Below, one piece after another: positions 8,871 through 27,764 of a stretch of 64,000 nt of DNA. Below the pieces are notes generated by a model, which searched no databases, was not told the DNA's origin, and saw only the letters and a program-made list of their open reading frames with translations. Origin of the DNA: an uncultured Paracoccaceae bacterium (GTDB lineage Bacteria; Pseudomonadota; Alphaproteobacteria; Rhodobacterales; Rhodobacteraceae); the NCBI GenBank assembly GCA_947500135.1, contig CANMQX010000003.1, positions 1-64,000 on the forward strand. The letters run 5' to 3'. The translations under genes and the position numbers were made by a program. Within the stretch, counting starts at the first letter, position 1, and each line of letters starts with the position of its first letter.

Positions 8871-9658
8871 AGGCCGAACCGTGCAAATGCTGCACGCTCT
8901 TCGATCTGACCGACAGCATCACCCATCAATTGTGCGCCAAACCGTGACAGAAGCGACTTCTTTTGCCCGTAGCGCCGGAATGTCACCTTGTCGCCAAACC
9001 GTTCTTTCATGATGGGCGCAAGATGCCCGATCCCGTCCGCCAGACCCGCATCAATGCCTTTCTGCCCGATAAAAACCTCGCCCGTGAACAGGTCAGGGTT
9101 TTCGGCCAGTTTGGTCCCTCGCCGCGATTTGACATAGGCGATAAAGGTTTCGTGGATATCTTCCAGCCAGCCTTTGAGCCGTTTCACGTCGGCTGGTTTT
9201 TCCGGTTTGAACGGGTCCATCATGGATTTAGATTTTCCCGCAGTGTGAACCCGCCGTTCAATCCCGTAATTGTTGATAAGTTCATGCGCGCCGAAATTGG
9301 CGCTGATCACACCAATCGACCCGGTGATCGAACAATCATCGACGAAAATCTCGTCCGCAGCACAGGCCAGCCAATATCCACCGGATGCGGCCACGTCTTC
9401 GACAAAGGCGAAAACAGGAATTTTCTTTTCTGCGGCCAGTCGCCGGATGCGGGCGGCGATTAGGGATGACTGCACGGGCGATCCGCCGGGGCAGTTGATT
9501 TCCAACGCGACGGCAGCTGGTTTGCCCTTGCTGAACGCTTTTTCGATGACAGGTGCGAGGCTGGGGTTATCAAGGCCCCGCCCGCTGTTGACGATGGCCC
9601 CTTGCAATCGGATGACGGCGACGAAGGGTTCATTTTTTGTGAACGGAATATATTTCAT
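8867..9658 (-). CDS. S49-family signal peptide peptidase-like protease (SppA/SohB type)
   Basis: A 263-residue Clp-fold serine protease with Ser/Lys dyad. The nucleophile Ser92 lies in AASGGYW and the general base is probably Lys144 (or Lys142) in the GKSKSM segment, as in short SppA proteins that work as membrane-bound oligomers. A strong hydrophobic signal segment is missing; the N-terminus has only a short apolar strand (FVAVIRL), so it is likely cytoplasmic or peripheral. First gene of a three-gene coupled unit; the membrane anchor might be supplied by the small membrane protein encoded next, which is inference. Confidence 0.85.
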   Translation of the reverse strand: MKYIPFTKNEPFVAVIRLQGAIVNSGRGLDNPSLAPVIEKAFSKGKPAAVALEINCPGGSPVQSSLIAARIRRLAAEKKIPVFAFVEDVAASGGYWLACAADEIFVDDCSITGSIGVISANFGAHELINNYGIERRVHTAGKSKSMMDPFKPEKPADVKRLKGWLEDIHETFIAYVKSRRGTKLAENPDLFTGEVFIGQKGIDAGLADGIGHLAPIMKERFGDKVTFRRYGQKKSLLSRFGAQLMGDAVGQIEERAAFARFGL

Positions 9659-9695
9659 AACCGCCTACTTAAACCTTAATGGTTCGCCCGCAAGG

Positions 9696-10457
9696 TCACT
9701 GTCTGATCCGCCACCCGGTCTTGAAGATCCACCAGATGAAGGCAAGGCACGCCCCGGTGAAAAGCGCGATGGCAAAAAGTGACAGACCGATGGAAACATC
9801 TGCTGTGCCGAAGAACGACCAGCGGAAGCCGCTGATTAGATAAACCACCGGGTTGAACAGGGTGATCGATTGCCAGATCGGAGGCAGCATGCTGATGGAA
9901 TAGAAGGACCCACCGAGGAATACCAAGGGTGTGATCACCAGCAATGGGATCAGTTGCAACTGTTCGAAATTCCCTGCCCAGATCCCGATGATAAAGCCCA
10001 GCAGGGCAAAACTGATGCAGGTCAGCGTTAGAAAGGCCACCATCGCAAGCGGGTGCGCGATAGTGATATCGACGAAAAAGAACGATGTGATCAGGATGAT
10101 GACCCCGATGAACATCGCCTTTGTTGCGGCTGCGCCGACATAGCCTGCGACGATCTCAAGAAAACTGACGGGCGCGGACAGCAGTTCATAAATCGTGCCG
10201 ATGAATTTGGGGAAGTAGATTCCGAAGCTCGCGTTAGAGGTCGCTTGTGTCATCACCGTCAGCATGATCAGCCCCGGCACGATGAACGCGCCATAGCTTG
10301 TGCCCTCCACCTCTTGGATCCGGCTGCCGATGGCCGTGCCGAAGACTACGAAATAAAGCGATGTTGAAAGAACCGGTGAGACGATGGATTGCGTCATAGT
10401 GCGGAAAAAACGCCGCATTTCAAAGATGTAAATGGTCCAGACCGCGTTGAAGTTCAT
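9696..10457 (-). CDS. ABC-2 type transporter permease
   Basis: A 253-residue integral membrane protein with six predicted helices and the ABC-2 signature region near [12 protein letters not shown]. It matches the YadH/NodJ-like permeases that work with a separate ATPase to export a small molecule or glycan. Its ATG overlaps the stop of the ATPase gene (ATGA, 10454-10457), so the two form one transporter. Substrate unknown. Confidence 0.92.
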
Positions 10458-11380
10458 GCTGTTTCCTTCACGAGATCAACAAAGATATCTTCCAGACTGC
10501 TTTGCCGTGTTTGCAGGTCTTTCATCTGCAACCCGGCCTTTTGCAAGTCGTTCAGCAACGTCGTGATCCCTGTTCTTTCGCCCGTCGTGTCATAGCTGTA
10601 GATCAGACTGAGCCCGTCATCCGCCCGTTCCAACGCATAGGATTTCAAAGCGCTGGGGATGTCATCCACGGCTTGTGCCAGTTCGATCTGGATTTGCTTG
10701 CGCCCCATCTGCGCCATCAGGTCCGCCTTGTCCTGCACCAGCAAAATCTCACCTTTACTGATCACCCCGATCCGGTCGGCGATGGCTTCGGCTTCTTCGA
10801 TGTAATGGGTGGTCAGGATGATGGTGACGCCGGATGCCTTGAGCCCGGCGACCACGTCCCACATATCCTTGCGCAATTCCACATCGACCCCGGCGGTTGG
10901 TTCGTCCAGAAACAGGACTTGCGGTTCGTGGGCCAACGCTTTGGCGATCAGCACTCGCCGTTTCATCCCCCCGGACAACATCATGATTTTGTTGTCTTTC
11001 TTATCATGCAGTGATAGCTGCTTCAGGATCGCCTCGACCTTGGCGTCATCGCGGGGTTTGCCGAAAAGCCCGCGTGAGAAGCTGACCGTGCTGAAAACCG
11101 TCTCAAACGGTTCCAGGTTGATTTCTTGCGGGACCAGACCGATCAGTTTGCGTGCGGCCCGGAAATCGGTCTGTGTGTCGTGCCCGCCGACGGTGATGCT
11201 GCCGGATGTGGGCACGGTGATCCCGCAGATCGTTGAAATCAAAGTAGTTTTGCCCGCGCCATTGGGTCCAAGCAGGGCAAGAATCTCACCATCTTCGATA
11301 TCAAGGTTGACGGATTTGAGGGCCTCAAACCCGCCCGCATAGGCCTTGCGCAGGTTCTGGACAGAGACGATGGCGGGCAT
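10454..11380 (-). CDS. ABC transporter ATP-binding protein (ABC-2 exporter)
   Basis: A 308-residue nucleotide-binding subunit similar to YadG. Walker [10 protein letters not shown], signature LSGGMKRR, Walker [13 protein letters not shown] and the switch His (TTHYIEEAE) are all present, followed by a C-terminal regulatory extension of about 80 residues. The ATG at 11380 is preceded by an AAAGGTG ribosome site at good spacing; the longer frame from 11548 adds 56 residues with no family support. Co-transcribed with the permease that follows. Confidence 0.93.
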
Positions 11381-11550
11381 GATGGTCACCTTTTGGCATG
11401 TCTGATCGAACCTAATGCGGGACACGGATGAGGGAAAGCGCTTAACGATGCGCGCGCTGCGGGTGGGGTGTGCAGCACTGCACAAGTCCACGGTGATTGC
11501 GAATCGACTGTTAACGAAGGGGATTGGCCCGAAAAGCCCGGTCTGCAAAG

Positions 11551-11580
11551 CGTCGGCTAGACGTCGGCAAAACGTCGGAC
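11551..11580. promoter_or_regulatory. Three CGTCGG direct repeats at exact 11-bp spacing
   Basis: CGTCGG occurs at 11551, 11562 and 11573, that is once per helical turn, in the 248-bp gap upstream of the ABC exporter operon. The fuller unit is close to CGTCGGCAAAA. A second triplet with the same 11-bp spacing is found between bchL and bchM (62832-62858). This looks like a protein-binding array; the binding factor is unknown. Confidence 0.55.
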
Positions 11581-11628
11581 CCTTTTGACGCCCCCACCCC
11601 CATTAAACATGCGTACGGTGGTGGTTCG

Positions 11629-12621
11629 TTAACCTTTGGCCGCGGCCCCTGTGCCGATCATGCCCGCCACATCCAGCATCCGGCAGGAGAACCCCCATTC
11701 ATTGTCATACCAGCCAAAGACCCGCACCAGCCCGCCTGATGTGACCCGCGTTTCAGGTAGCGAGATGATCAGGCTTTCGGCACGCGCGCGCAGATCAGAG
11801 GACACCAGCGGCTTGTCTGTCCAGCCGATGATCCCCGATTGCTGCCGGATCGTGTCATGCACATCAGCAAGGCTGGCGGCCTGATCCAATGTCACCGTCA
11901 AATCAACTGCCGAAACACTGGCGGTTGGCACGCGGACCGCCGCCGCCTCGATCCGGCCGGCGATATCGGGCAGCACCTGATTGAGCAGCCGCTGCGCAGA
12001 GGTGGTCGTCGGCACCATCGACAGCCCGGCAGCCCGACTGCGCAGCATGTCGCCGCGCGGTGCATCAATCGTGGGTTGGCTGCCGGTGTAGCAGTGGATC
12101 GTTGTCATCCATCCAGTTTTGATCCCCCATGTGTCATCCAGCAGTTTGACAATCGGGGCCAGCGCGTTGGTGGTGCACGAGGCGTTGGAGACGATCAGCT
12201 GATCATCCAACAGATCGTCATTGGCCCCCATTACCATGGTCAGGTCGGCGGCATCAGATGGCCCGGAGATCAGAACACGCCGCGCCCCGGCCTTTAACCC
12301 GCGTGCGGCGACATCGCGGGAATTGGCCTTGCCGGTGCATTCCAGCAGGATATCCACCTGATCCAGCTCCAGCGTGCTGATATCCGGGGTACGGTGCAGC
12401 GGGATGGGTTTTTCATCGACAACCAATGCGTCGCCGATCAGTTCGGCCTGTCCGGGGTAGGGCCCAAACACGCTGTCATAGGCAAACAGATGCGCGCAAA
12501 GATCGGGCGCCGCGATATCGTTGATACCTACGATTTGGAGGTCAGGTGCCCGCCCCGTCGCCCATGCACGCAACACCGTCCGACCGATCCGCCCGAAACC
12601 GTTGATAAATATCCGTGTCAT
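11629..12621 (-). CDS. gap: Glyceraldehyde-3-phosphate dehydrogenase (NAD-type)
   Basis: A 330-residue phosphorylating GAPDH. Features: N-terminal NGFGRIGR Rossmann motif, Asp35 in GIND (favours NAD over NADP), catalytic Cys149 in SNASCTTN, His176 in TIHCYTG, and the C-terminal WYDNEWGFSCR. It differs from the textbook consensus at several places (for example SGPSDAADLTMVMG instead of SAPAKDDTPTFVMG), so it is probably a divergent paralogue, and an erythrose-4-phosphate dehydrogenase-like role is possible. It stands alone, with a 465-bp divergent gap to the kinase gene. Confidence 0.88.
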   Translation of the reverse strand: MTRIFINGFGRIGRTVLRAWATGRAPDLQIVGINDIAAPDLCAHLFAYDSVFGPYPGQAELIGDALVVDEKPIPLHRTPDISTLELDQVDILLECTGKANSRDVAARGLKAGARRVLISGPSDAADLTMVMGANDDLLDDQLIVSNASCTTNALAPIVKLLDDTWGIKTGWMTTIHCYTGSQPTIDAPRGDMLRSRAAGLSMVPTTTSAQRLLNQVLPDIAGRIEAAAVRVPTASVSAVDLTVTLDQAASLADVHDTIRQQSGIIGWTDKPLVSSDLRARAESLIISLPETRVTSGGLVRVFGWYDNEWGFSCRMLDVAGMIGTGAAAKG

Positions 12622-13086
12622 CGCCTGTTACCCTCCGTTGCGCGGATGCTGCAACTTTGGCGCAATACCTACAAGGAGGGTTTCCTGCTTTGCGGCGATG
12701 CCGCTATACCGAAAAATGTAAAGGAATCATGAAGGATGCCTGAGTTAGGGAGCGAGGCAGAATCACAGCCGATTCTCATGGGACGGGAGGGCTTGGTTCA
12801 GAGAAGCTGGCAGAATGCCGGGTTTTTCCACATTTGTGACCAAACGTTCATCTTTGAGATGATGAATGTCGTTGCTATCCCGAGAATCGAGTATTTTTAA
12901 GGGCGAATAGGCGGAAAATTGCCAAAGACTGTTTCTTGATCGTGTGATAATCATACCGAAACCCTTTGATTAAGGGCCATGAAACAACAAGTTGGCGTCA
13001 CTTTTTAGCCCAATTTGAATGAGACTAGACACTATAGGTTTGTGGTAGAACCACTTAGCCGCCGAAGTTTGAAAGCTGGATGTGAG
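12622..13086. other. Intergenic gap between gap and the kinase locus
   Basis: A 465-bp divergent region, less GC-rich than its neighbours, that should hold the promoters of gap (minus) and of the kinase operon (plus). I see no strong hairpin terminator, no convincing small gene, and no box I can assign. A pair of distant 8-bp inverted sequences (CGATTCTC near 12770, GAGAATCG near 12882) is the only symmetry noticed. A 63-codon frame at 12763-12954 (minus) has no family features. Confidence 0.6.
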
Positions 13087-15468
13087 ATGGGTAAGGCGCA
13101 GGTACAAGATAGTAGTGACGACAAGGACAATTTCGTTGATGAACTGAAGCCAGGCACAAAGTTGATGCATGGCCAGTACACCATCGAACGGTTCCTGAAC
13201 GCGGGCGGCTTTGGCATCACTTATCTTGCCAATGACAGCCTTGAGCGTAAGGTCGTCATTAAAGAGTGTTTCCCCGGGGCGTTCTGCCGCCGGAGCCGGT
13301 ACGTTGTGCAAGCCCGTTCGCGTGCCCACCAGAACGAACTGAAATCAATCGTGCGCCTGTTTGTTCAGGAAGCCCGCAGCCTTGCCAAGCTGGACCACCC
13401 TAATATCGTTGGTGTCCACCAGGTCTTTGAAGACAACGAAACCGCCTATATGGCGCTGGATTTCGTTGAGGGTCGCGATCTGCTTGATATCATTGAGGAC
13501 CCGAATGAGGGTCTGACCCCGCCGCAGATCAAGAACATCCTGAAGGAAGTGCTGGGCGCTGTTGGGTTCATTCACGACCAGAACATTCTGCACCGTGACA
13601 TTTCCCCCGATAACATCCTGATCAATTCGCAGTTCCATCCGGTTTTGATCGATTTTGGTGCTGCCCGTGAAGAGGCCACCAAGCAAAGCCGCGTTCTGTC
13701 GGCGTTGCGTGTGGTCAAGGACGGCTATTCCCCGCAGGAATTCTATATCGCCGGTTCTGATCAGAGCCCAAGTTCTGACCTTTATGCGTTGGCGGCATCC
13801 TTCCACCATCTGATTGCGGATGATGTGCCCCCCAATTCGCAAGCCCGTTTGGCGGCTATCGCGTCGGGTGAGCCCGATCCCTACGTGCCGCTGCTTGGCC
13901 GGTTTGACGAATACGACACCGATTTCCTTGCCGCGATCGACAAGGCGCTTGCCGTTCTGCCGAAAGACCGTCTGCAGTCTGCGCAGGACTGGATCAACAT
14001 GATGGACGGTGTTGAGGGCAATGTAACCGCCCTGAACGTGGTCAATCCTGCTGCTGGTACTGAAGGCGCTGCTGCCGCTGGCGGTGAATCCAAGTCAAAG
14101 ATGCCTCTTCTTTTGGGCTCTGCCGCTGTGGTTGCCTTGCTGATTGGTGCCGGTGCTTATGTCATGACATCAGGTGGTGACACCGATCCGGCCCCGGTCG
14201 AGGTTGCGTCTGCTACTGTTGTTGAAACGCCCGCCGTTGAGCAGACCCCTGCCGTTGCAGAAACACCTGCGGTCACGCCAGAAGTGGCTGAGCCTGAAAC
14301 GGTCGCCGCAGCACCAGCGGAAGAAGAGCAACCTGCCCCGGCCGAAGAGGTGGCTGCGGTTGAAGAACCCGCCCCTGTCGTCGAAGAACCCGTTGCGCCT
14401 GTTGTTGAAGAGCCGGTTGCACCGGTGATCGAAGAAGCTGTCGCCCCGGTTGTTGAAGAACCCGCCCCTGTTGTGGAAGAGCCTGCACCGGTTGTTGAAG
14501 AGGCGACCCCGCCGACTGCACCTGTCATTGTTGACGCAGCCGAACCAGCGCCAAGCGAAAACCCCGCGCCGCGTTCCGATGTTGTGTCCGGCCCTGAAGT
14601 CGTTGAGCAGCCAACCCCGGTTGTCAGACCGACCCCCCGCCCTGAAAGCGTGGAAATTGCGGCTGTCCCGCAGGTCGAGGCACCAGCGCCCTTGCCCGAA
14701 CCGCTTGCGACCCCGCGTCCAACGGTCAACGAGCCTGACGCCGCAGCAGAGCTGCCAAGTCAGCTTGCCAGCAGCGCATTGCCCGAAAGCACAACACCGT
14801 CTGTTGTGTTGCCCAGCACGCCAGAGGTTGTCGCCTCTGTCGGGACCGGCCCATCGGTTGATGCGATTGCGGCCATCGTTCCCGGCAATGAAGTGATCAT
14901 TTCAGCCGTTGAAAGAAACTGGTCAGTGGAGCTGCCGTTTAAGCCCGCTGCCCCGGATTCGAACCTGATCGGCGAAATCGGCTTCATCTCGCCCGTTTGG
15001 GTGAAGCCTGGTTTGGCCATCACCTCGGTCAATGGTATTGAGGTTGACGCGATTGAGGACGTGGCCAGCATTGTATCGTTTACAAGTTCGCCGAGCGAGT
15101 CAGGTCAGATTGAGCTGCTTTTCGGCACACTTGATGAGACAACCGGCCTGTCAGAAGAGCATAGCTGGGCTGTCCCCATTGTACAGGAGACTGCGCTGGA
15201 GAATGGCTTGCGGTTCGAGACAGTGTTTATCGGGTCTGCCTGGCGGACAACCGTCAAAGACGTCCCGGCAGAGCTTGAAGGTGTGTTTGAGGTTGGCGAT
15301 GTTGTCATGACCGACATTACGACAGCAGAGCCTGTGAATGGCCGCGAAAGTCTTGCGGAAATTCTTGATCGTGAATTGAGTGATGGCCAAGGCCAGTTCG
15401 CTTTTGAAGTGCAGCGCGGGGAGACCCGTTGGGTCGCGCCGTTCAGCTACACAGTGAGCGAAGGTTAA
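13087..15468 (+). CDS. Transmembrane serine/threonine protein kinase with periplasmic PDZ-like region
   Basis: A 793-residue Hanks-type kinase. Catalytic parts: glycine loop NAGGFGITY (38-46), ATP Lys59 in VVIKE, helix-C Glu95, HRD at 169-171 and DFG at 189-191. The catalytic loop reads HRDISPDN, with Ser where most kinases have Lys. A membrane helix spans about 339-360. It is followed by about 190 residues of Pro/Glu/Val/Ala-rich repeats (many PVVEEP units) and a periplasmic C-terminal part of about 190 residues with PDZ-like segments (GLAITSVNGIEV; GVFEVGDVV). The ATG at 13087 is preferred to a TTG at 13015 because the extra 24 residues carry no conserved sequence; neither has a strong ribosome site. 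First gene of the kinase/FHA/phosphatase/GTPase locus. Confidence 0.9.
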   Translation: MGKAQVQDSSDDKDNFVDELKPGTKLMHGQYTIERFLNAGGFGITYLANDSLERKVVIKECFPGAFCRRSRYVVQARSRAHQNELKSIVRLFVQEARSLAKLDHPNIVGVHQVFEDNETAYMALDFVEGRDLLDIIEDPNEGLTPPQIKNILKEVLGAVGFIHDQNILHRDISPDNILINSQFHPVLIDFGAAREEATKQSRVLSALRVVKDGYSPQEFYIAGSDQSPSSDLYALAASFHHLIADDVPPNSQARLAAIASGEPDPYVPLLGRFDEYDTDFLAAIDKALAVLPKDRLQSAQDWINMMDGVEGNVTALNVVNPAAGTEGAAAAGGESKSKMPLLLGSAAVVALLIGAGAYVMTSGGDTDPAPVEVASATVVETPAVEQTPAVAETPAVTPEVAEPETVAAAPAEEEQPAPAEEVAAVEEPAPVVEEPVAPVVEEPVAPVIEEAVAPVVEEPAPVVEEPAPVVEEATPPTAPVIVDAAEPAPSENPAPRSDVVSGPEVVEQPTPVVRPTPRPESVEIAAVPQVEAPAPLPEPLATPRPTVNEPDAAAELPSQLASSALPESTTPSVVLPSTPEVVASVGTGPSVDAIAAIVPGNEVIISAVERNWSVELPFKPAAPDSNLIGEIGFISPVWVKPGLAITSVNGIEVDAIEDVASIVSFTSSPSESGQIELLFGTLDETTGLSEEHSWAVPIVQETALENGLRFETVFIGSAWRTTVKDVPAELEGVFEVGDVVMTDITTAEPVNGRESLAEILDRELSDGQGQFAFEVQRGETRWVAPFSYTVSEG

Positions 15469-15508
15469 ACCGAGCTGCGTCTGTGACGTAAATTGGAAGG
15501 TAGGTAAA

Positions 15509-16327
15509 ATGAAATTTCTCCGTGCACTCTTCGGCAAGAAAGGCGGCAGTTCCGCAGCCGATAGCGCTGATTCGTTGGAACAATCATACCGCGACACCAT
15601 CGGATCCATCGTTGATGAAAATGAACCGCTTCAGTCCCAGCAATCTGGTTCGGACGTTGCCGTTACTGATATCCTGACCAATATCAACACCAAGGTGAAT
15701 ACTGGCGAAGCCGCGCAACAAGCGCCTGCCGTCAATATCTGGGATATGGATGATGGTGGTTCAACGGAATTGCCAAGTGCCGCGCCGCAGCTGCCATCGG
15801 CCGCTGCATCGGCAGCAGCTGCTCGGTCACCCGCCCGGTCCCGCCGGACCAAGACCCGGTTGATCGGTTTTGACAAATCTGATGGTGATGTTGTCGACAT
15901 CTTCAACGATGCCCCGAAGGCTGCCCCGCCTGCTGTACGCAGCAAGTTCCCGGTTGGCTGGATCGTCGTTGTTGAAGGCCCCGGTCGTGGTGAAAGCTTT
16001 TCACTGTTTGCTGGGATGTCCCAGATCGGTCGCGGTGATGATCAGGCTGTGCAGCTTGATTTCGGCGACAACTCTATTTCCCGCACGAACCATGCGGCGA
16101 TTGTCTATGACCCAGAGACATATGAATTCACGCTGGGTCATGGTGGTAAATCAAATATTGTGCGTTTGAATGATAAGCCTTTGATCAGCAACGAGTTGCT
16201 GAAAACAGGTGATGTGATGCGTATTGGTGAGACGGTTTTGCGTTTTGTCGCCCTATGTGACCAGAACTTCAACTGGGATGACAATGATGCAGACGGGGAG
16301 GATGACGAAGATGTGGCGATCGCCTGA
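15509..16327 (+). CDS. FHA domain-containing protein
   Basis: A 272-residue cytoplasmic protein: a basic N-terminal tip (MKFLRALFGKK), a long low-complexity Ala/Ser/Asp-rich part, then one FHA domain at about residues 147-252. The phosphothreonine-pocket residues are visible (SQIGRGDD, SISRTNHA, and the GDVMRIG strand). FHA domains read phosphothreonine, so this is the likely acceptor or adaptor of the kinase upstream. A GGAAGGTAGGT ribosome site precedes the ATG. Its last 17 bases overlap the phosphatase gene. The low-complexity part contains several Thr residues that could be kinase targets. Confidence 0.9.
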   Translation: MKFLRALFGKKGGSSAADSADSLEQSYRDTIGSIVDENEPLQSQQSGSDVAVTDILTNINTKVNTGEAAQQAPAVNIWDMDDGGSTELPSAAPQLPSAAASAAAARSPARSRRTKTRLIGFDKSDGDVVDIFNDAPKAAPPAVRSKFPVGWIVVVEGPGRGESFSLFAGMSQIGRGDDQAVQLDFGDNSISRTNHAAIVYDPETYEFTLGHGGKSNIVRLNDKPLISNELLKTGDVMRIGETVLRFVALCDQNFNWDDNDADGEDDEDVAIA

Positions 16328-17402
16328 ACCACGTTTTGACGTCGCTTCGGCGATTTGTCAGGGCGGTAGAGACTATCAAGAAGACGCGATTGTTACCGAC
16401 TTTCCGTTCGGCATGGACAGTGGTGTTGTGGTTCTTGCTGACGGCATGGGCGGCCATGCTGCCGGTGACGTGGCAAGCAAGATCGTCGTGACCGAAGTCT
16501 ATAGCGAGCTGAAGTTCCAATCGGCAAATTTCACCGATTTCGAACATGAAATTCCGCAATACCTGACATCGGCTGCCGTGAACGCAAATAACTGCGTCCG
16601 TGAACATGTCATGGAACACCCTGACACGCGGGGCATGGGTGCCACACTGGTATCCCTGGTTCTGATCGAGAACCGCATGTTCTGGATGTCCATCGGTGAC
16701 AGCCCCTTGTACCATTATCGTGCGGGCAAGATGCAGCAGTTGAATGAAGACCATTCGATGGCCCCTCAGATCGACTTTATGGTCAAGCAAGGCTTGCTTG
16801 ACCCTGCGGCTGGCAAGAACCACCCGGACCGTAACTGTCTGACCTCTGTGATCCTGGGCGACCGTGTTGCAAAGTCTGACTGTCCCAAGACTCCGTTTGA
16901 ATTGCAGGTCGGCGATATTGTCGTCGTGTCCAGCGATGGTCTGCAATATCTGGAAGACGAACGTATCCAGAAGATTTTGCACCGTTATCGCCGCCGCAAG
17001 AGTGCCGAGATTTGTGGTCATCTTCTTGAGGCGATTGAAGCCCTTGCTGACCCTGATCAGGACAACTGTTCGTTTTCGGTCATCAAACTGAACCACAACA
17101 AGCCGGTAATCCGTGCCATCCGCGCCAAGCCTGCCGGCTATATCGAGGAGAGCACAAACATGACCCGCGTCGTCAAGATGGACGATGCAGCAGAAGGTCG
17201 TGTTGCAGCCCGTGGCGATGAGAAGATCAGCAGTAACCTGCAGCTTCCCCCTGTCGTCAAAGAGGTCAAGCCGGTGAAGCCTGTCGACAAGAAGTCAGGT
17301 GCCAACCCCGCCGCCGGTCAATCGGCAAAAAATGCAGATCCCAAGATACAGGAGGTTGATGAGGCTGCGCCTCCGGCTAAACTCGCCGCCGGAGGAAAGT
17401 AA
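16311..17402 (+). CDS. PP2C-family protein serine/threonine phosphatase
   Basis: A 363-residue protein with a PP2C catalytic domain at about 8-260: metal-binding Glu24/Asp25 in YQEDA, Asp44 in LADGMGGH, then GMGATLVSL, IGDSPLY, SSDGLQYL and the final DPDQDN. It would remove phosphate put on by the kinase. The ATG at 16311 is chosen because GGGGAGG at 16295-16301 stands 9 bp before it; upstream in-frame starts lie inside the FHA gene. The C-terminal 100 residues are a basic, disordered Lys/Pro/Ala-rich tail. The stop overlaps the next start (TAATG). Confidence 0.92.
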   Translation: MWRSPEPRFDVASAICQGGRDYQEDAIVTDFPFGMDSGVVVLADGMGGHAAGDVASKIVVTEVYSELKFQSANFTDFEHEIPQYLTSAAVNANNCVREHVMEHPDTRGMGATLVSLVLIENRMFWMSIGDSPLYHYRAGKMQQLNEDHSMAPQIDFMVKQGLLDPAAGKNHPDRNCLTSVILGDRVAKSDCPKTPFELQVGDIVVVSSDGLQYLEDERIQKILHRYRRRKSAEICGHLLEAIEALADPDQDNCSFSVIKLNHNKPVIRAIRAKPAGYIEESTNMTRVVKMDDAAEGRVAARGDEKISSNLQLPPVVKEVKPVKPVDKKSGANPAAGQSAKNADPKIQEVDEAAPPAKLAAGGK

Positions 17403-18724
17403 TGTCGAATCGATCTTTGGGCGCACGCGTCCAGCAAAAACTGACGCAGGCAGTGGCTTCTGGCCGCTTGCCTGCGACTGCACAAGAGCGTGCTGAAAAG
17501 CTGCTTGAACGGATCAGCAAGCCCGTTCGCGTTGGATTGATGGGCCTGCCCGGTTCAGGGAAATCCACCATTCTGAACCTGCTTCTTGGGGCTATTGCTG
17601 TCCCTCACAACACGAAGTTCCCGACCCTTCTGCTGACCTATGGTGAAACCGCCCAGACCATTTGCACCCTTGCTGATGGGTCCCGCACCACATTGCCCCA
17701 TGCCAATGGCCGCGAAGTTGCCGCCCTTTCCCCCGCATTTGTCGAGATGCAGATGCCGTTGCCCGCATTAGGCAAGATCAGCCTGTTGGAAGTTGTCACC
17801 CCGGATGATCCCACCGCACTACAGCGTGCCAGCCAGTGGGCCGCTGGCCGCATTGATGTGGCCCTTTGGTGTACCCAGAGTTTTGACAAGACAGAGCAGT
17901 CGTTGTGGGCGCAGATGCCCGATATCTTGAAGGACCATGCGTTTTTGATGGTCACCAAGTCGGATTTTTTGATCGCCAATGACATGCTGGATCAAACCAT
18001 GGACAAGATCCGCCATGTCGCCGGAGAGGAGTTCAGTCAGATCCTGCCAATTGCGACAAAACAGGCGATTGCATCGCGCCGCCCCAACGGCACGGTTGAT
18101 AAGGCGCTGATGCGGAGCAGTGGCGGCTCTGCCCTGATTTCGGCCGTGTTGAAACAGGTTGATATGGGTCGCCAAACCGCCGTTGATATGGCCGACATTC
18201 TGTTGCACCAGCATGCCGAGCTGCTGGACGCCCCCGAAGAAGAGGTTGCACCGCCACCTGTGCTCGCGCCAGAGCCGGAACCGGTTGTTGAAGAGCCTGA
18301 ACCACAGGAGGCCGCTGCCGCTGAACCCGAGCCTGCCGCCGCCGCGTCAGAGGAGGTTGAGGAAGCCGCAGAAGACGCAGATGTCGTTACACTGCAACCC
18401 GCCACCCGTACCGCCTATGAAAGTGCAATTGCCTATCTGACCGAACAAGGTCAGGCATTGACCGGTGTTATCGATCAGATGGGCGACGATGCCCCGTCTG
18501 AAATCATGGCGCAGGCTGTCGAACATGTGCAGTGGTTGAGCGATCATTTGAACGAGAATGGCGATGACGCAGATGCCGCGTTGCAGCTTGCCCGCGATAC
18601 CGCCATGGATGCCGCTGATCTGGTCCAATTGATGCAGATGGAGAAGCGTGATAGCGCTGCCATTGAAGCGATCAGTTTGCTTGTTCAGCTAAAGCACGAG
18701 CTGCAGGCAGACCTTGCCGCTTAA
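17402..18724 (+). CDS. P-loop GTPase with acidic linker and helical C-terminus
   Basis: A 440-residue protein. Walker A GLPGSGKST at residues 48-56, preceded by an N-terminal helix; a TKSD motif near residue 184 serves as the guanine-specificity G4 box; the G3 region is degenerate (VVTPDD rather than DxxG). After the G domain (to about 270) comes an Ala/Pro/Glu-rich acidic linker (about 275-335) and a helical acidic tail. It resembles the dynamin/YfjP-like GTPases and may be a partner of the two GTPases downstream. Joined to the phosphatase by a TAATG overlap, so it belongs to the same transcript as the kinase. Confidence 0.85.
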   Translation: MSNRSLGARVQQKLTQAVASGRLPATAQERAEKLLERISKPVRVGLMGLPGSGKSTILNLLLGAIAVPHNTKFPTLLLTYGETAQTICTLADGSRTTLPHANGREVAALSPAFVEMQMPLPALGKISLLEVVTPDDPTALQRASQWAAGRIDVALWCTQSFDKTEQSLWAQMPDILKDHAFLMVTKSDFLIANDMLDQTMDKIRHVAGEEFSQILPIATKQAIASRRPNGTVDKALMRSSGGSALISAVLKQVDMGRQTAVDMADILLHQHAELLDAPEEEVAPPPVLAPEPEPVVEEPEPQEAAAAEPEPAAAASEEVEEAAEDADVVTLQPATRTAYESAIAYLTEQGQALTGVIDQMGDDAPSEIMAQAVEHVQWLSDHLNENGDDADAALQLARDTAMDAADLVQLMQMEKRDSAAIEAISLLVQLKHELQADLAA

Positions 18725-18886
18725 GTTGTTGCGAGAGCTTAAAATTTTATGAAAACTATGCCACACTTTTGCCCTGCTGGTCTGTTTCCATTATGGCAAT
18801 AAAACTGGTTTATAGTTCATGATTTGGCGTGGGGGCGATCAACTGATAAAGGTGATCCCGACCAAAGTGTTTGAGGACGGAAAAGA

Positions 18887-20971
18887 ATGAAGATGGAAGA
18901 GCTGACAAAGGGAGACGGGTACAAAGTCCCTGCAGCGCACCACCCATTCATGCGGCTTGGCCTTGAAAAGCTGGACGCATTCCACGACGAGGTCACCGAC
19001 CTTGAGGCGACCCTTGGGGACGTCGTAAAGCTTGGCGGCCAGGACGCAGAAAAGAAATCATCAAAACTTATCAAGCAGTTACGCACGTTTGAGCCAAGCA
19101 TCACGATGATTGGTCAGATCAAGTCGGGCAAGACATCGCTGGTCAATGCGATGATCGGTCGTCCTGAATTGCTGCCTGCCGATGTGAACCCCTGGACCTC
19201 TGTTGTGACGTCTCTGCATTTGAATGCCCCGCTGCCTGCCGATGCCCCAACCGCGTCCTTTCAGTTTTTCAGCCAGGGTGAATGGGACCATCTGGTTGAA
19301 AACGGTGGCCGAATCGGTGAGCTGTCATCCCGTGCCGGCGCCGATGAAGAGCTAGAGAAAGTCCGCGAACAGATCGCTGAGATGCGCGAAAAGACCAAAG
19401 CCCGCCTTGGTCGCAAGTTTGAATTGTTGCTGGGCCAGAAACATAACTATGCCGAGCTGAATGATGAGCTGGTGCAGCGTTATGTCTGCATGGGTGATGA
19501 TTTTGAGGATATGGACGAAGAGGATCAGCAGGGTCAGTTTGCTGATATCACCAAGTCAGCCGATCTGTATCTGACTGCCGAAGCCATTCCGATGCCCTTG
19601 TGTCTACGTGATACGCCGGGTGTGAACGACACGTTCATGATGCGCGAGCAGATTACCATCAATGCCTTGCGCGATAGCCGCATTTGCGTGGTTGTCCTGT
19701 CTGCCCATCAGGCGCTGAGTTCGATGGATATGGGCCTGATCCGCCTGATCGCCAACGTGAAATCCCGCGAGGTCATCATCTTTGTGAACCGGATCGATGA
19801 ATTATCCGATCCCGCCGCACAGGTCCCGGAAATTCGCGAAAGCATCCTGCAGACCCTTGCCGACAATAATGGCCCCGAGAACCCGGAAGTGATCTTTGGC
19901 AGTGCCTATTGGGCCAATATCGCCCTGTCTGAGGATCTGAATGATATCGTTGCCGATAGTGCCGCAGCCCTGTTCAACTGGGCCGAAGTCGCGTTGGATT
20001 CCGGCACGGCCGGGATGGAAACCAATGAATTGGTTTGGCAGCTATCGGGTGTGCCTGCCCTTTATAAAGCTTTGTCGGAACGTATCGCCGAAGGGCCGGG
20101 CGCCGAAGTCCTGACCGCATCGCGCAAACGTGCGCTGAACCTTGTCGGCGGTGTGCGTGCGTCAAGCGACATGATTTCCATGCGGATGGATGGTGACAGT
20201 GTGGATGTCATGCCGCCTGATCAGTTGGTGGCCCATCTGGACAAGCTGGAAGCTGACAGCCTGAAGTTCCTGAATGATCGTCTTGATATCGTGTTCCAGC
20301 AGTTCGGTTCGCGGGTGGACCAGTCGCATAAGCGTTTTCTGGACCGCGCGCTTGAATCGCTTTTGCAGCATCTGGAAACCAATGGCGAAGACGAGGTTTG
20401 GCAATATAGCCCGGATGGCCTGCGCATGTTGCTGCGCACCAGCTATCAGGTGATGCGGCGCAACGTGTCATCGACCTGTGAACAGGTTTATGCGGCGGCG
20501 TCGAACGATCTGGCCGAAACATATCGCACCGCTTTTGGTGTTTCTGTTGAGAATTTTTCGATCACCCCGCCAGCCGCCCCTGAAATTCCGGCCCCAGTGT
20601 CGCTTGGCCAGACTATCGCGTTGGATCTGCAGACATCATGGTGGAAAGGCTGGTGGAAGCGCCGCAAAGGGTATCGTGCCTTTGCCAGCGGGTTCTATGA
20701 CCTGATCGAGGCTGAAACCGCCCCGATCGTGGATGAGTTGAAAGTACGTCAAGCCACCGGCATCCGTCAGATGGCAGAACGCGAGCTGAGCGAGTTTTTG
20801 TCCGAACAGCGGGGGCTGCTGACGGATATCAGCAATAAATCCCAGGTCGGCGTAGACGATTTGGAAAACATTTTCGGTATTACTGCCCAACAAGAACGCG
20901 AAGAACTATTCGATTACATCTTCGAGGAATTGAATGATGGGCCACAGGCTGAAACAGAAGGAACAGCGTAA
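18887..20971 (+). CDS. Bacterial dynamin-like GTPase
   Basis: A 694-residue large GTPase. N-terminal helices (1-65) lead to a G domain with G1 GQIKSGKTS at 76-84, a G2 Thr in WTSVVT (103-108), G3 DTPG at 242-245 and G4 NRID at 301-304. The rest is mostly helical. Near residue 583 is a Trp/Lys/Arg-rich patch (WWKGWWKRRKGYRAF) that could insert in membrane like the paddle of bacterial dynamins. An inserted helical hairpin (about 150-200) lies between G2 and G3. A GAGGACGGAAAAG ribosome site precedes the ATG. The 162-bp gap before it may hold its own promoter. The stop overlaps the next start (TAATG). Confidence 0.88.
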   Translation: MKMEELTKGDGYKVPAAHHPFMRLGLEKLDAFHDEVTDLEATLGDVVKLGGQDAEKKSSKLIKQLRTFEPSITMIGQIKSGKTSLVNAMIGRPELLPADVNPWTSVVTSLHLNAPLPADAPTASFQFFSQGEWDHLVENGGRIGELSSRAGADEELEKVREQIAEMREKTKARLGRKFELLLGQKHNYAELNDELVQRYVCMGDDFEDMDEEDQQGQFADITKSADLYLTAEAIPMPLCLRDTPGVNDTFMMREQITINALRDSRICVVVLSAHQALSSMDMGLIRLIANVKSREVIIFVNRIDELSDPAAQVPEIRESILQTLADNNGPENPEVIFGSAYWANIALSEDLNDIVADSAAALFNWAEVALDSGTAGMETNELVWQLSGVPALYKALSERIAEGPGAEVLTASRKRALNLVGGVRASSDMISMRMDGDSVDVMPPDQLVAHLDKLEADSLKFLNDRLDIVFQQFGSRVDQSHKRFLDRALESLLQHLETNGEDEVWQYSPDGLRMLLRTSYQVMRRNVSSTCEQVYAAASNDLAETYRTAFGVSVENFSITPPAAPEIPAPVSLGQTIALDLQTSWWKGWWKRRKGYRAFASGFYDLIEAETAPIVDELKVRQATGIRQMAERELSEFLSEQRGLLTDISNKSQVGVDDLENIFGITAQQEREELFDYIFEELNDGPQAETEGTA

Positions 20972-21858
20972 TGAGTAACCAGGCCGCCGGATCAGGTGGG
21001 CCGCGCAAACCGCGCATCGCGTTGATGGGCGAGTTCAGCGCCGGCAAGAGTACCTTGTCGAACCTGTTATTGGGTGCACGCCCCTTGCCTGAGAAAGTGA
21101 CTGCCACCCGTCTGTCACCGGTCTGGATGTCTTATGGCAGTGAACAGCCCTACCGCATTGATGTCGACGGAACGACCGAACCGGTGTCAATTGATATGCT
21201 GGAAACAGTACCGGTCGACGAAACCCACGTAATCCGTTTGTTCATGGAAGCCGATATTCTGGATGTGATCGACCTGGTCGACTTTCCTGGGATTTCCGAC
21301 CCCAACATGAGTTCCGACGTATGGGAACGGGTTTTGCCAGAAATTGACGCCGTGATCTGGTGTACCCATGCCACACAGGCCTGGCGCCAGTCAGAGGCTG
21401 CTGTGTGGGACATGATGCCGGATGTCGTGCGCGAAAATTCGATTTTGCTGATCACACGCTATGACAAGCTGACAACAGATAATGATCGCCGTCGGGTATT
21501 GCGGCGTGTCATGCGTGAAACAGATGGTCTGTTTGGCGGCACATTCCCGATTTCACTGCTGCAGGCACTGGAAGCCGGGGATGACTACGACCGTTGGGAT
21601 GGTAGCGGCGCTGGCCCCTTTGTTGACCATTTTCTCAATACGATTGCCACGCTTTGTGAACTAACCGCAAAATCCAAAAAGCCATTGTTTAATAGTGGAA
21701 GGCGCGCACAAGGCGCCGATGGGGCAGAGCTGGAAGAAGAGCAAGAGCCAGAAGAACCAGCAACGCCCGTCACACCGCGCCGTGTGCAACGCCCATTGGA
21801 TGCGGATCAGCCCAAACGCGCCCGCCCACCTGCATCACCCGAAAGTGGTGTTGGCTAG
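20971..21858 (+). CDS. Small dynamin-superfamily GTPase
   Basis: A 295-residue protein with G1 GEFSAGKST (20-28), a probable G2 Thr in TATRLS, G3 DFPG (about 103-106) and G4 TRYD (about 160-163). It consists of little more than a G domain plus a Pro/Glu/Arg-rich disordered tail (about 245-295). The start overlaps the stop of the dynamin-like gene, suggesting a matched pair; many bacterial dynamins work as two-gene pairs. The short body lacks an obvious membrane-binding region, so it may need its larger partner. Confidence 0.87.
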   Translation: MSNQAAGSGGPRKPRIALMGEFSAGKSTLSNLLLGARPLPEKVTATRLSPVWMSYGSEQPYRIDVDGTTEPVSIDMLETVPVDETHVIRLFMEADILDVIDLVDFPGISDPNMSSDVWERVLPEIDAVIWCTHATQAWRQSEAAVWDMMPDVVRENSILLITRYDKLTTDNDRRRVLRRVMRETDGLFGGTFPISLLQALEAGDDYDRWDGSGAGPFVDHFLNTIATLCELTAKSKKPLFNSGRRAQGADGAELEEEQEPEEPATPVTPRRVQRPLDADQPKRARPPASPESGVG

Positions 21859-22198
21859 GGGTAGAACCCAAAGCGGTACTTGTTTCATTGCAGCCGCACG
21901 GTGACGTAGGGAAAATCTGCGGCGCAGATTTTTCAGCCCCACGAACGAAATATTGGCCACAGCCCTGTGAAAAAATCTGGGTCAGATTTTTTATGTTATG
22001 TCTGAACGATCAAAGGCGGGCGCCTACCTTTTTGTGATAGCGTTACCCCTTGATCATGTCGTGGTGGCCGCGTGATCCGATATTGGTGATCTGAAGGTTT
22101 TCCGCGGTTCCAGCAGTCACCGCTAACGCAACCATTGCGTCAAGTGCGGCCTACATCTTGGATGGGCTTCCACAAGTGACTATTTTGACGTAGTCACA
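21859..22198. other. Intergenic gap after the GTPase operon
   Basis: A 340-bp stretch without a convincing gene. It contains two short palindromes (21912-21932, 21970-21992) that probably end the GTPase transcript, and a third inverted repeat (22176-22182 with 22191-22197) directly before the next start codon. The remaining sequence, including several Thr/Gly-poor open frames, shows nothing I recognise. Confidence 0.6.
21912..21992. repeat. Two short palindromes with related arms, possible terminator
   Basis: Arms AAAATCTGC/GCAGATTTT (21912-21932, centre GGC) and AAAAAATCTG/CAGATTTTTT (21970-21992, centre GGT). Both share the AAATCTG half-arm and a 3-nt centre, the same build as the palindromes beside uvrC. 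The second ends in six T and would work as a terminator in both directions. Confidence 0.75.
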
Positions 22199-22594
22199 AT
22201 GATGTGGGACGAAATTGGGGCTTTGGACATGGTTGCGGACGTTTTGGACGCGTTACACGATAAGTTTGAGGAATGCGAAACTGTCGCATTCGCAGATTTA
22301 TCAACGCAGATGGTTTTGATTACAAATTCGGACGCGAGCCATCGTCGCGAGACGCTTGACCGCCTTTGCGCAGAGGCGGCAATGGCGCTTGGCACATCCA
22401 AAAAACCCGCCGCGTTTGGCGACACCCCCAGCAGTGCTGCATTTGTTGCTACGAATAGTCAGCTGCGTATCTTTCTGCGCGCCACGGACGAACCTGCTGA
22501 TGTGTTGTGCTGTGTCTGCAAACCCGGTGTTGATGTGGCAGCGTTTCTATTGGACGCCCGCCCATGTCTGGCAAAAATCAGCGGTGGTGCGTGA
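22199..22594 (+). CDS. Hypothetical protein, roadblock-like size and layout
   Basis: A 131-residue soluble acidic protein I do not recognise. An N-terminal helix (ALDMVADVLDALHDKF) is followed by a hydrophobic strand (VAFADLSTQMVLITNS), a second amphipathic helix and later apolar strands. That layout is compatible with a roadblock/LC7 or profilin-like fold, which often regulates GTPases; this is a weak inference. Two start codons (22199, 22202) lie next to each other without a ribosome site, just after a 7-bp inverted repeat. The following gene starts 33 bp downstream. Confidence 0.6.
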   Translation: MMWDEIGALDMVADVLDALHDKFEECETVAFADLSTQMVLITNSDASHRRETLDRLCAEAAMALGTSKKPAAFGDTPSSAAFVATNSQLRIFLRATDEPADVLCCVCKPGVDVAAFLLDARPCLAKISGGA

Positions 22595-22627: not shown

Positions 22628-23410
22628 GTGACTGACCTGACCGCCCTTGCCAACAAACTAAGCGCGTTGACATCGGATGAAACCGTGTTTGCGGATGGCG
22701 GCGCGCGCGTGATCAGCCAAGGCGGCACCCCGCCGCCTTTGGTCGCGATTTTGGCCGAGGTGGACAACACCGTTCTGGAGCGCACTTTGGTCTTTGGCAT
22801 GGGTGCCGCCACCGTCAGTGCCGTTGTCGCCGGTCGCCGTATGCGGGGCATCGTTGGGATTGAAGGGGACGTTCCCGGCGCGAGCGATGTCATCGGGCAG
22901 GTTTTTTCCCGCGAGGATCCGCAACTGCTGGAAAATACCAGCGCATTACTGACGGCATTGGGGGAGGCAACGGGCGTCGTTACCGTGCGCAGCACCCCTG
23001 TTCAGCAGCTGGGCAGCAGTGGCGATGCGGGGATTTCGGCCAATGGGCTGGCCGATCTTTGGGATGTCGATATGGACGCCACCCCGCCCCCGCCGATGGA
23101 ACGGTTTCTGGAGGCGAATGCCGACAAGATGGTTGGCCTGGTCCATGTTAATGCAGGCAAAGTTATCGAAACAGGCGGCGAAAGCGATATCTTACAGGCG
23201 ATGTGGGATGATCAGGTCCCAGCGTTTCGCAAGCGTTTCAAAACGATGCACCCGCAGCACGAAGGTCCGATGTTGATCTGTCTGGATGATGTGATCGCGG
23301 GCAAGCTCGGCGCTGCACTGGCGTTGGTCGAAGATGAGGCCTGCATGTTTTCCTACAAGCCGGATGACCTGACGGCGATCATCGGATCATGGGGCGCGAT
23401 CACTGCGTAG
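22628..23410 (+). CDS. Hypothetical protein following the GTPase locus
   Basis: A 260-residue soluble acidic protein beginning with GTG; a GGGGATAAT purine stretch precedes it at suitable spacing. Alternating helices and strands are suggested by sequence (TLVFGMGAATVSAVVAG; MLICLDDVIAGKLGAALAL) with a Pro-rich break in the middle (ATPPPPMERF), so it may contain two similar small domains. No catalytic motif, signal peptide or membrane helix. It is probably co-transcribed with the 131-residue gene. No family recognised. Confidence 0.65.
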   Translation: MTDLTALANKLSALTSDETVFADGGARVISQGGTPPPLVAILAEVDNTVLERTLVFGMGAATVSAVVAGRRMRGIVGIEGDVPGASDVIGQVFSREDPQLLENTSALLTALGEATGVVTVRSTPVQQLGSSGDAGISANGLADLWDVDMDATPPPPMERFLEANADKMVGLVHVNAGKVIETGGESDILQAMWDDQVPAFRKRFKTMHPQHEGPMLICLDDVIAGKLGAALALVEDEACMFSYKPDDLTAIIGSWGAITA

Positions 23411-23449: not shown

Positions 23450-26400
23450 TTAGGCGATCCCGATGCCACCCCCAAAGTCCAGACCGATGATCAGCGGATC
23501 ATGGTCGGACGATGCAAAGACCCCATCATTGAAGAAATCAGGGTTCTTGAAGGATGTATCGTAATTCAGCAGATCAGGTTCGTCGGCATTGATGTGCCAT
23601 TCTGTGGCCCCGGTCACGAACCCGGCCAGCCCGTCATCTGCAAAGCCCTGATCGAGCGTGCCCCGCTGCCCGTCAAAGACAAAGCTATAGGCGTCATCCT
23701 GCCCGATGAACGTATCAATCAGATCAACCAGCCCGGCATCGTCATCCAGATGCTGCACCGGATCTTCCTTGGCATAGGCGTTCAGGTCGCCCAGCAGCAG
23801 GTAATTGTCCGTACCGCCGCCATTATAGCCGTTTTCGATCCAGTCGCTGAGTTCAATAGATGCGTCCAGTCGCACCTGATTCCAGAACCCTTGTCCGTTG
23901 CCCTGATCAAAGTTCGGGTCCGCCCGCAATGCATCGACATCCGCTTGGGTGAACCCAGTTGCCGTACCGTTGTCGATCGCGTCTTGCGCATCATCCGCCA
24001 AACGATCCAACCCACTCGGCCCCTTGGATTTGAAATGCGACGACACAACGGTGAATGTTTCGCCGGTTTCAAGATCCTCGAAGGTTGCGGCGACCGATGG
24101 CCGATTACGTTGGAAGTCCCCAACCCGGCTTGTCCCCAGCGCTGTGTCGAGCAGGTTCGCCAGCGCAAATGTGTCAGCCGCAGAAGATTCGTTGAACACC
24201 AGGAATTCGGAATGCACCAGCCGCACGGCGTTTTCATCATAGATGATGCCTGTGCTGATCGCGTCCGTCCCAATGAAACCTGCATCGGTGGTTGGGTCCG
24301 CGAAGGCGTATGACGCCCCAGAACCCGTTGCCGTCGCTTCCGTATTCAGTGCATCAACCAGCGTCTGGATCGCGCTGTCCGCTCCAAAGCCACCGTTTTC
24401 GATTTCCTGCAACGCAAACACTTCCGCCTCTGTCCCGGTGATGGCCGCGACCAGTTTTTCGGTCTGCCGCACCAGTTCTTCGGGGTTGTCAGCACCCCGT
24501 GGGTCGAGGTTATTGGGCCCTGATCCTGCGCCCGGTTCGTCGATGGTAGAGAAGTAGTTCAGCACATTGACGCTGGCCACTTGCAGGCTGCCGCCCACAT
24601 CATCAGGGCTGTCCTGTCGTGCGCCGCTATTTGTCGACTCGTCAATATCCAGCGTTTCGGTGACTACCAGTTGGTAATCCCCGAATGCGTAGGACAGCAC
24701 GCCGGTGACATCATCGGTCAGTTCCGTGCCAAGCCGCAGCGTTGATCCCCCATCGCTGAAATCATCGCCGGAATCGAGGAACCCGTTGCCGTTGTCCCCC
24801 GGTCCACCGGGCACGAATTCGAACTGGTCGGGGTTTTGTGACCCGACCCCGTCTTCTAGGATCAGCCTGTTGTTTTCATTCGCCTCTTGCTGTGCGGCAA
24901 CTTCAGCCGCTTCGGTTTGTGCGTCGAATAGCTGTGTCGCCTGGGTTTGCACCCCGGCGCTGATCACCAACTGCCCGAACCGGTCAAAGTTGAAGTTTTC
25001 GATCACTGTCAGCGGGTCAGGCGTGCCTGAAGTAACATTGATCAGCATGCCTTCGACGGCTTCGTAATCCGGGACAGCGTCGGGCGATAGCAGGATGCTG
25101 GCGGCGGTTGGCGTCGCAGTGACGGCCGCGATCACCGCTGTTGCGCTGACATTGGTGATCTGGGTCAGGCCAAAGAATTCGGCCACTTCGCCGGTGATCC
25201 CAACCAGATTGCCCACGCTGACGGTTGGCGCGCTCCCGGTGAAGACAAAGATCCCTTCGGATGTCGACGCGTCGCCATCTGCGTCGCTGTCTTCTTCCTG
25301 CAGGTAGTAGCCGTTGGAGACGATATGGGTCACTACGGCTTCGACATTGACGGTATCGCCAACCAGGGCGGATTCGTCCCCGCTCCCCTGAATTTCGCTG
25401 ATCAGCCGGTCCTCGCCCGGTTCGACCACCACTTCATTTGCCGCGCCACGGGTCTCTGCGGATGGTCCGAACCAGACCCCATCCGTGCCCAGTTGCAGTG
25501 ATTGCCCCACTTCCGTGCTGCCGGTTTCGGCGACACCGATATCGGTGGATGTCTGGCCGGCTGCGGGACCATCTGTTGCGGTGACTTCGCCCTCATAGCT
25601 GACGAATTCGACGACAGCGCCGTCATTGGACAGTGCAATCGCGTCCGGCCCGTTCTGGATGTTGGGCGTGTCGATCACGTAGTAATCATAAGTGCCGTCA
25701 CTTGTGACAGTGCCGCCACTAACGGCAAAGGTTCCGTAGCTGCCCCCGCCATTCCCGTTGTAGAGATCAAGGGTCAGGTTGCTGACATCTTCGCCCGCAT
25801 CGACCCGCACTTCGATGAATTCACCAACATCGCTGCTTGCATTGTCATAGTGAAATTCGTTGATCTGCGCCGTTGTCGGCCCCGCCGGAATGACGTTTGC
25901 AGCGCCGGAGGTGTTCACATCAGTCGCGGCCCAGCTGCCCGATTCATTCCGTTGCAGGGATGCGCCGATCACGGTGCCGCTGTTTTCGCTGACGCCGATA
26001 TCGGTGGATGTGACGCCATCGGCGCTGCCCCCAACTGCGGTCAATTCGCCTTCATAGCTGAGGAATTCAATTAGGGCGCCATCGTTGGACAGGGCGATCC
26101 CATCGGGTGACCCGTTTTGCAGCCCGTTTGTTGGCAGGTTAAGCACGTAGTAGTCGTAAGTGCCGTCGCTGCTGGCAGGGGCGGCGGGCAGAGAGAGAGT
26201 GTTGTAAGGCGCCCCGTTGCTGCCGTTATAGAGTTCGACCACAACCCCAGATGCGTCACCGCCCGCATTGACCCGGATTTCGATGAACTCGCCCACATCC
26301 GCTCCATCGTTGTCGTAATGCAGTTCATTGATCCGTGCGACAAGCGGTTCGGGCACGGGGATGTTGGCCGCACCGGACGTATTGGTTGCGGCTTCATCCC

Positions 26401-27580: not shown

Positions 27581-27764
27581 GGTTTTCCCCCAACCGTTGG
27601 ACTTCATATTTTTTGGTTTGTTCGAAAAGTGTAACAGTATTATTTTCTGGTACACTATCGAAATGTATGACCCTACGTCAGTTCGCCTATGGGTGGCATC
27701 TGCTTTGTGGTGGTCGTCAGGCTGCCCTTGTCCTAGGCTGAGATCCTGAAACAGAGGAGTTTTC

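Follow-up and report, generated by a model that had tools for sequence, protein, structure and literature searches.

A conserved eight-gene cluster of Rhodobacteraceae places a kinase, a putative phosphothreonine reader and a phosphatase beside a predicted dynamin-like pair

The on/off control of bacterial dynamin-like proteins is, to our knowledge, largely an open question; the literature consulted reports no input from a kinase, and we know of no phospho-signalling module that accompanies Nostoc BDLP or mycobacterial IniA. In Campylobacter jejuni, Cj-DLP1 and Cj-DLP2 (PDB 5owv and 5oxf; PMC6104087) are encoded by two adjacent, overlapping dynamin-like genes; the available part of that article describes an operon to which an HcpA-like gene putatively belongs and mentions neither a kinase nor FHA or Roadblock proteins. 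A similar pair is encoded in the stretch analysed here, a window of 64,000 nucleotides from an uncultured Paracoccaceae bacterium (GTDB family Rhodobacteraceae; contig CANMQX010000003.1, assembly GCA_947500135.1), where it forms part of a unit of eight genes, KIN-FHA-PPM-GT1-GT2-GT3-RB1-RB2, all on the + strand. In this compact set, a dynamin pair and a protein with a Roadblock fold are accompanied by an intact kinase, reader and phosphatase. The eight genes very probably represent one functional system, and their synteny and co-occurrence are best read as phospho-signalling tied to dynamin-type GTPases. No description of this gene composition was found in the open-access literature, in agreement with the preliminary description of the locus; subscription journals are mostly outside this coverage, and the absence is no proof.

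The preliminary description, made from the sequence alone, proposed a unit of six genes, KIN to GT3. All six reading frames are present on the + strand and form a conserved unit, but this unit does not end with GT3, as RB1 and RB2 further downstream also belong to it. Both are easily overlooked because neither alone reaches a Pfam or NCBIfam family. Conservation was assessed in two sets of loci. A scan of named genomes yielded 504 relatives, and the 80 best-scoring loci among them were retained for tabulation. In addition, GT2 was searched against 149 genomes of the family and 40 stretches around the matches were fetched, which together with the window and a second locus of the same genome, on contig C16, make up 42 loci scored with family profiles. 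Greedy longest-ORF (open reading frame) calling is unreliable in high-GC loci; genes were called by profile search.

Gene order across relatives, on which the proposal had been made to depend, is conserved. The eight genes occur in intact order on one strand in 50 of the 80 named loci, and in 48 of the 59 that have enough flanking sequence; two further intact-order loci have short flanks. All eight genes, in any arrangement, are found in 53 of these 59. The intact loci include 33 of the Yoonia/Loktanella-like type (L088-L126), among which L088 hardly differs from the window and so counts its lineage a second time, and 17 from other genera, e.g., Litoreibacter, Defluviimonas, Jannaschia, Marivita and Actibacterium. 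Of the 42 family-search loci, own and contig-cut loci included, 21 show the intact order, while the others are cut by a contig end or contain a sister type of dynamin pair.

The junctions are also recurrent. FHA and PPM overlap in the window, as had been noted, the overlap being 17 nt, and are spaced within 30 nt in 50/50 complete loci. The TAATG overlaps reported for PPM/GT1 and GT2/GT3 can both be read in the sequence, and a stop-start overlap is present at PPM/GT1 in 38 of the 50 complete loci and at GT2/GT3 in 31 of the 36 measurable ones among them. The gap between GT1 and GT2 comprises 162 nt in the window and 52-236 nt in relatives, with overlap in 0/50, and GT3 and RB1, separated by 33-371 nt across the 50 complete loci, are never tightly joined.

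Eleven named loci with enough flank deviate from the common order (L116, L144, L147, L150, L136, L157, L140, L158, L161, L162 and L121). GT3 is split over two frames in L116, RB1 and RB2 are swapped in L144, KIN is relocated and inverted in L136 and RB2 is undetected in L157. The two Leisingera loci L147 and L150 contain the cluster as two facing halves, and in Leisingera plasmids and genomes GT2-GT3-RB1-RB2 is oriented towards KIN-FHA-PPM-GT1. The location of GT1 on the kinase half indicates that it goes with the phospho-module. In Ruegeria, a second dynamin pair sits between RB2 and KIN, and in the single-contig genome G003 all genes are retained but dispersed, with GT2-GT3 at ~0.3 Mb and, ~12 kb apart from each other, RB1-RB2 (3.38 Mb) and KIN-FHA-PPM-GT1 (3.39 Mb). 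Thus, the rearrangements in Leisingera, Ruegeria and G003 define three blocks, KIN-FHA-PPM-GT1, GT2-GT3 and RB1-RB2, which are kept together without the need for adjacency.

Among the 149 family genomes, GT2 matches are found in 35, FHA matches in 29 and RB1 matches in 31. GT2 is present in 31/31 RB1-positive genomes (7.3 expected) and in 27/29 FHA-positive genomes (6.8 expected), and four GT2-positive genomes (4, 15, 51 and 74) are without RB1. At E 1e-30, a search of 337 genomes of the class with the GT2 profile yields a match in the own genome only; at most three candidates were scored per listed genome, and the family was sparsely sampled. GT2-type genes are also located on 18 plasmid records, from Leisingera (12), Ruegeria (5) and Rhodobacter (1), including NZ_CP083558.1, NZ_CP041163.1 and NZ_CP031947.1; all are typed as non-mobilizable.

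KIN (13087-15468) had been described as a transmembrane Hanks kinase, and its sequence is that of a catalytically intact Hanks-type Ser/Thr kinase: it matches Pkinase (E 6.5e-30), and the catalytic Lys, HRD and DFG are kept in 67/67 alignment rows. A single hydrophobic transmembrane (TM) segment, seen in relatives and in the near-identical record L088, is followed by a long Pro/Glu-rich region and a C-terminal domain presumed to be periplasmic. The TM segment is found in 60 of 64 kinase frames, being missing from the short L154, L156 and L160 and at threshold in L149.

FHA (15509-16327) matches in Pfam only Yop-YscD_cpl (2.4e-6), under the curated cut-off of that family, while its family profile finds only GarA/Rv1827 entries in the PDB (E about 5e-5 to 1e-4). 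The GR, SR and H residues of the domain are present in 72/72 rows, consistent with the proposed role as a phosphothreonine reader. Equally invariant (72/72) is T116, within a K-T-R-L-[IL]-G-F motif N-terminal to the domain. Further FHA relatives exist: a second one lies beside the cluster on the opposite strand in L048 (14875-15528), and second matches occur in genomes 79, 126 and 147. In L186 (3358-11270; genome 11), distant relatives of KIN, PPM and FHA are found together in the absence of GT2; this may be the phospho-module in an older form.

PPM (16311-17402) is, by its sequence, an intact PP2C phosphatase, as had been stated. It matches PP2C_2 (2.5e-10) and the Stp1-type PP2C model (8.5e-43, yet under the equivalog cut-off of that model), and the DGMGGH and DN residues are present in 73/73 rows. 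In other genera, the cluster is flanked by a PBP-OmpA type gene in 16/80 loci and by a PilJ type gene in 13/80, as assigned by clustering and Pfam-checked on two and three members, respectively. In one Leisingera cluster, a LysM protein is encoded between kinase and FHA. Proteins of the PBP-OmpA, PilJ, rhodanese and LysM types adjoin the cluster at L145 14268-18239, L133 14634-18778 and L083 21535-23876. These proteins are likely envelope sensors or anchors, and a signal from the envelope is suggested by the secreted-gene neighbours and by the presumed periplasmic part of KIN.

The three GTPases had all been called dynamin-type, but only GT2 appears to be a full dynamin-like protein; GT3 is a partner reduced to the G domain and GT1 a dynamin-related pseudo-GTPase. 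GT2 (18887-20971; Dynamin_N 2.1e-12) contains invariant G1, G3 and G4 motifs in 83 rows, and an invariant WWxxWW segment that is a possible membrane-binding tip. In profile searches of the PDB it matches 5owv_A, i.e., DLP1 of the C. jejuni pair (4.4e-12), and BDLP (2.2e-8). Its AlphaFold2 model (pLDDT 79.2) displays long helices and a hydrophobic segment, with pLDDT values of 51-64 near the tip, and by Foldseek is closest to Nostoc BDLP (4.5e-15), mycobacterial IniA (1.4e-14), SynDLP and the C. jejuni pair. The TM-scores are modest, reaching only ~0.4-0.55 against the full BDLP and IniA targets, and therefore either the domain arrangement of GT2 is different or the model represents another state.

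GT3 (20971-21858; Dynamin_N 4.6e-11) has its best PDB profile match in chain C of the same C. jejuni structure, DLP2 (5owv_C, 3.9e-17, residues 14-233). The G3 and G4 motifs are present in 83/83 rows and G1 in 82/83. Unlike its C. jejuni counterpart, GT3 consists only of a G domain, with 295 amino acids, no stalk and a disordered-looking tail. Sequence and models characterise GT2-GT3 as an intact pair of dynamin-like proteins of the DLP1/DLP2 kind.

GT1 (17402-18724; MMR_HSR1 5.6e-6) is homologous to GT3 (hhalign 99.8%, 216 columns). It retains the P-loop Lys in 79/80 rows and the T and D of TxxD in 77/80 each, but DxxG is found in 0/80 rows, and none of the 80 has a Gly at the G3 position; in the alignment with GT3, E130 and T133 occupy the D and G positions of DxxG. 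Judged by this loss of the G3 motif, GT1 is a pseudo-GTPase, and it carries a long acidic/helical C-terminus.

RB1 (22199-22594) has no match to Pfam Robl_LC7 in 28/28 members, a Robl_LC7 search of the own genome found none, and a profile sequence search of the PDB produced only matches with E 0.26-0.97. Its AlphaFold2 model (pLDDT 80.4) shows the Roadblock order alpha-beta-beta-alpha-beta-beta-beta-alpha, and the best 50 Foldseek matches shown (best E 1.4e-6) are without exception Roadblock, MglB, Ragulator-type or Rag chains. The model thus predicts a Roadblock/MglB fold, and RB1 is termed a Roadblock-fold protein rather than a Robl_LC7 member because the sequence match is absent. RB2 (22628-23410) is recognised by its place in the conserved order and has no assigned fold. 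No Pfam family is common to more than one of its 26 members, and the PDB search gave nothing usable, with two matches to a designed protein and a TPR-like entry (E 0.004 and 0.09). A relation between RB2 and RB1 was rejected, as hhalign shows none, and a likeness of RB2 to the C16 protein c16A, an idea formed by eye, is unsupported. Downstream of RB2, the opposite strand encodes a 1438-amino-acid protein (23450-27766) with RTX-type Ca-binding-like repeats and nuclease-like regions, as seen by eye.

The assembly of the eight genes into a single operon is doubtful because the GT1-GT2 gap is never closed in 50 loci and contains a conserved non-coding block of 22 nt, CTGTTTCCNTTATNGCAATAAA (18782-18803, + strand). 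When matches of at least 18 of 22 positions were scored, the block was detected in 26 of 33 genus-level GT1-GT2 gaps, and it was absent when sought in other genera. With up to three mismatches it has one site in the own genome, compared with 0 for a reversed-pattern control. The block is a candidate second promoter or operator, and a new transcription start probably lies between GT1 and GT2. Scans for sigma-70 promoters and terminators revealed promoters no more frequently than in shuffled sequences. The GT3-RB1 gap contains a terminator-like inverted repeat (21912-21932) with a perfect 9-bp stem (-15.4 kcal/mol with flanks, z -3.13; 0.02 pattern matches expected by chance), which is a possible terminator. 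Three transcripts for the eight-gene unit are plausible.

A mechanism that would connect these parts starts with KIN, which would sense an envelope signal and phosphorylate FHA at T116. In GarA, the phosphothreonine is bound by the protein's own FHA domain. Likewise, phospho-T116 could bind either the domain of FHA itself or a partner, and the contact with GT1 would be altered. GT1 would serve as an adaptor that binds nucleotide but probably does not switch in the normal way, and its G domain might pair with GT3 or GT2 and in this way hold or release the dynamin pair. RB1 could act as a GTPase-activating protein or as a docking platform for the GTPases, and PPM would return the system to its resting state. 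Under envelope stress, the inner membrane would as a result be tethered, remodelled or repaired. Control of the dynamin pair by phosphorylation, and not of something else, is the favoured although by no means secure assumption. The full chain, with the T116 switch, GT1 as adaptor, RB1 as regulator and a membrane output, is more tentative and falls slightly short of an even chance.

Several observations weigh against a coupling of this kind. KIN is not found within the stretch seen in L140, L158, L161 and L162, and KIN, FHA and PPM are all missing from the stretch seen in L121, while the GTPases are kept in each case. FHA occurs without GT2 in genomes 11 (a weak match) and 146, and RB1 without an FHA match in genomes 19, 22, 54 and 98, of which 22 and 98 are incomplete assemblies. 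In a mirror-tree comparison over 58 loci, each of the families shows distances correlated with the GT2 distances (r 0.84-0.94), values obtained with no species-tree control. The GT1-GT2 gap and its conserved block point to two halves that are transcribed separately, and the adaptor function of GT1 is a guess.

The best-surviving alternative, albeit an unlikely one, is a spatial switch of the MglA/MglB type, in which Roadblock protein and GTPase would generate a polarity or localisation signal dependent on the nucleotide state and steered by phosphorylation, with membrane remodelling secondary or absent. The proximity of the RB1 model to Roadblock and MglB chains, the bare G domain of GT3 and the fact that RB1 never occurs without GT2 in the 149 genomes are in line with this possibility. 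However, no MglA-type GTPase was identified within the cluster, and the full dynamin-like helical region of GT2 and its WWxxWW segment would not be expected in a Ras-like switch.

Somewhat less probable still is a role in anti-phage or membrane-integrity defence, in which the kinase would sense infection and the dynamins would delay lysis or seal membranes. DynA of Bacillus subtilis is reported to protect against phages (PMC8844932), and this analogy, the patchy spread of GT2-type matches over 35 of 149 family genomes and PADLOC matches of KIN (mad6 2.3e-42, PD-T4-6 6.1e-41) and GT2 (LeoA 9.2e-8) argue for such a role. Yet the KIN matches reflect a generic kinase domain, no PADLOC model is hit by FHA, PPM, RB1 or RB2, and the gene set as a whole is unmatched among PADLOC systems, with only the kinase and weak LeoA/MADS matches. 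One GT2 scan of viral contigs found no relative, and in the genus of the window the upstream flank is stable, with a GAPDH-type gene in 29 loci.

It is improbable that KIN-FHA-PPM-GT1 and the dynamin-Roadblock module are merely neighbouring, independent units, the former with other targets. The GT1-GT2 gap with its candidate promoter would fit this view, as would the separability of the halves in Leisingera, G003 and L121. On the other hand, the halves are co-retained in G003 though unlinked, co-occurrence in the 149 genomes is far above chance, and GT1, on the kinase side, is homologous to GT3.

The preliminary description had likened the kinase, FHA protein and phosphatase to type VI secretion regulators and seen no type VI structural gene, and indeed no type VI secretion system (T6SS) genes adjoin the cluster. 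The own genome, which was outside the knowledge of that description, contains a T6SS with TssC on another contig, C7, where the locus encodes TssA, F, G, H, TagH (TIGR03354, 280.7 bits, 3.5e-83), a Hanks kinase and a PP2C. The FHA protein of the window gives no match to the TagH model. Of the 149 family genomes, 35 contain TssC, which co-occurs slightly more often than expected with GT2 (13 genomes where 8.2 are expected, Fisher p 0.040) and with FHA (11 where 6.8 are expected, p 0.052); larger genome size might account for this excess. A displaced PpkA-Fha-PppA regulator, suggested by the same three activities, the T6SS in the own genome and this small excess, is therefore very improbable, given that the own T6SS carries its own TagH, kinase and phosphatase and that TssC is missing from 18 of 29 FHA-positive genomes.

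The own genome contains a second dynamin pair at the C16 locus (L008; C16:8000-27000), with genes at 9017-11110, 11091-12287, 12263-12724 and 12739-13338; after the pair come genes for a small protein and for a short LOV photoreceptor. The latter has its best PDB match in the LOV protein 7ob0 (E 2.6e-29), and a LOV gene also lies beside sister dynamin pairs in L045 and L076, where it may provide a blue-light input. The small protein, c16D, was considered as a Roadblock protein from by-eye likeness only, and a PDB search gave no match.

The cluster occurs in cultured and in plasmid-bearing marine bacteria, and if the link between phosphorylation and the dynamin pair holds, dynamin switching would become directly accessible to experiment. 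The most far-reaching interpretation is a signalling machine for membrane shape, in which a receptor kinase, together with a phosphothreonine switch and a phosphatase, would drive the dynamin pair via a dead-GTPase adaptor and a Roadblock regulator; as a whole it is possible but rather doubtful. If true, the C16 pair beside LOV would imply that dynamins gated by sensors are of a general kind in which the input can be exchanged.

The cluster shares features with several known systems. The GAP1-N2 systems (PMC7159879) also couple membrane GTPases to a kinase and PP2C; in the available part of that text, the kinase/PP2C/vWA theme is restricted to actinobacteria and includes tubulin, vWA and FNIII parts and zinc-ribbon GTPases, and dynamin and Roadblock are not mentioned. 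With PpkA-Fha-PppA, the cluster shares a transmembrane kinase, an FHA protein and a PP2C phosphatase, but it lacks adjoining T6SS genes and its FHA protein resembles GarA instead of TagH. The GarA/OdhI switch is matched by the FHA domain profile and by a Thr N-terminal to the domain, while the motif around this Thr is K-T-R-L-[IL]-G-F and the N-terminal region that carries it is longer. As in MglA-MglB of Myxococcus, a protein with a predicted Roadblock/MglB-like fold is encoded beside GTPases, although these are dynamin-type and not Ras-like, and RB1 has no Robl_LC7 match. If the proposed signalling machine exists, it would represent a bacterial parallel to regulated dynamin and Rag-Ragulator type control.

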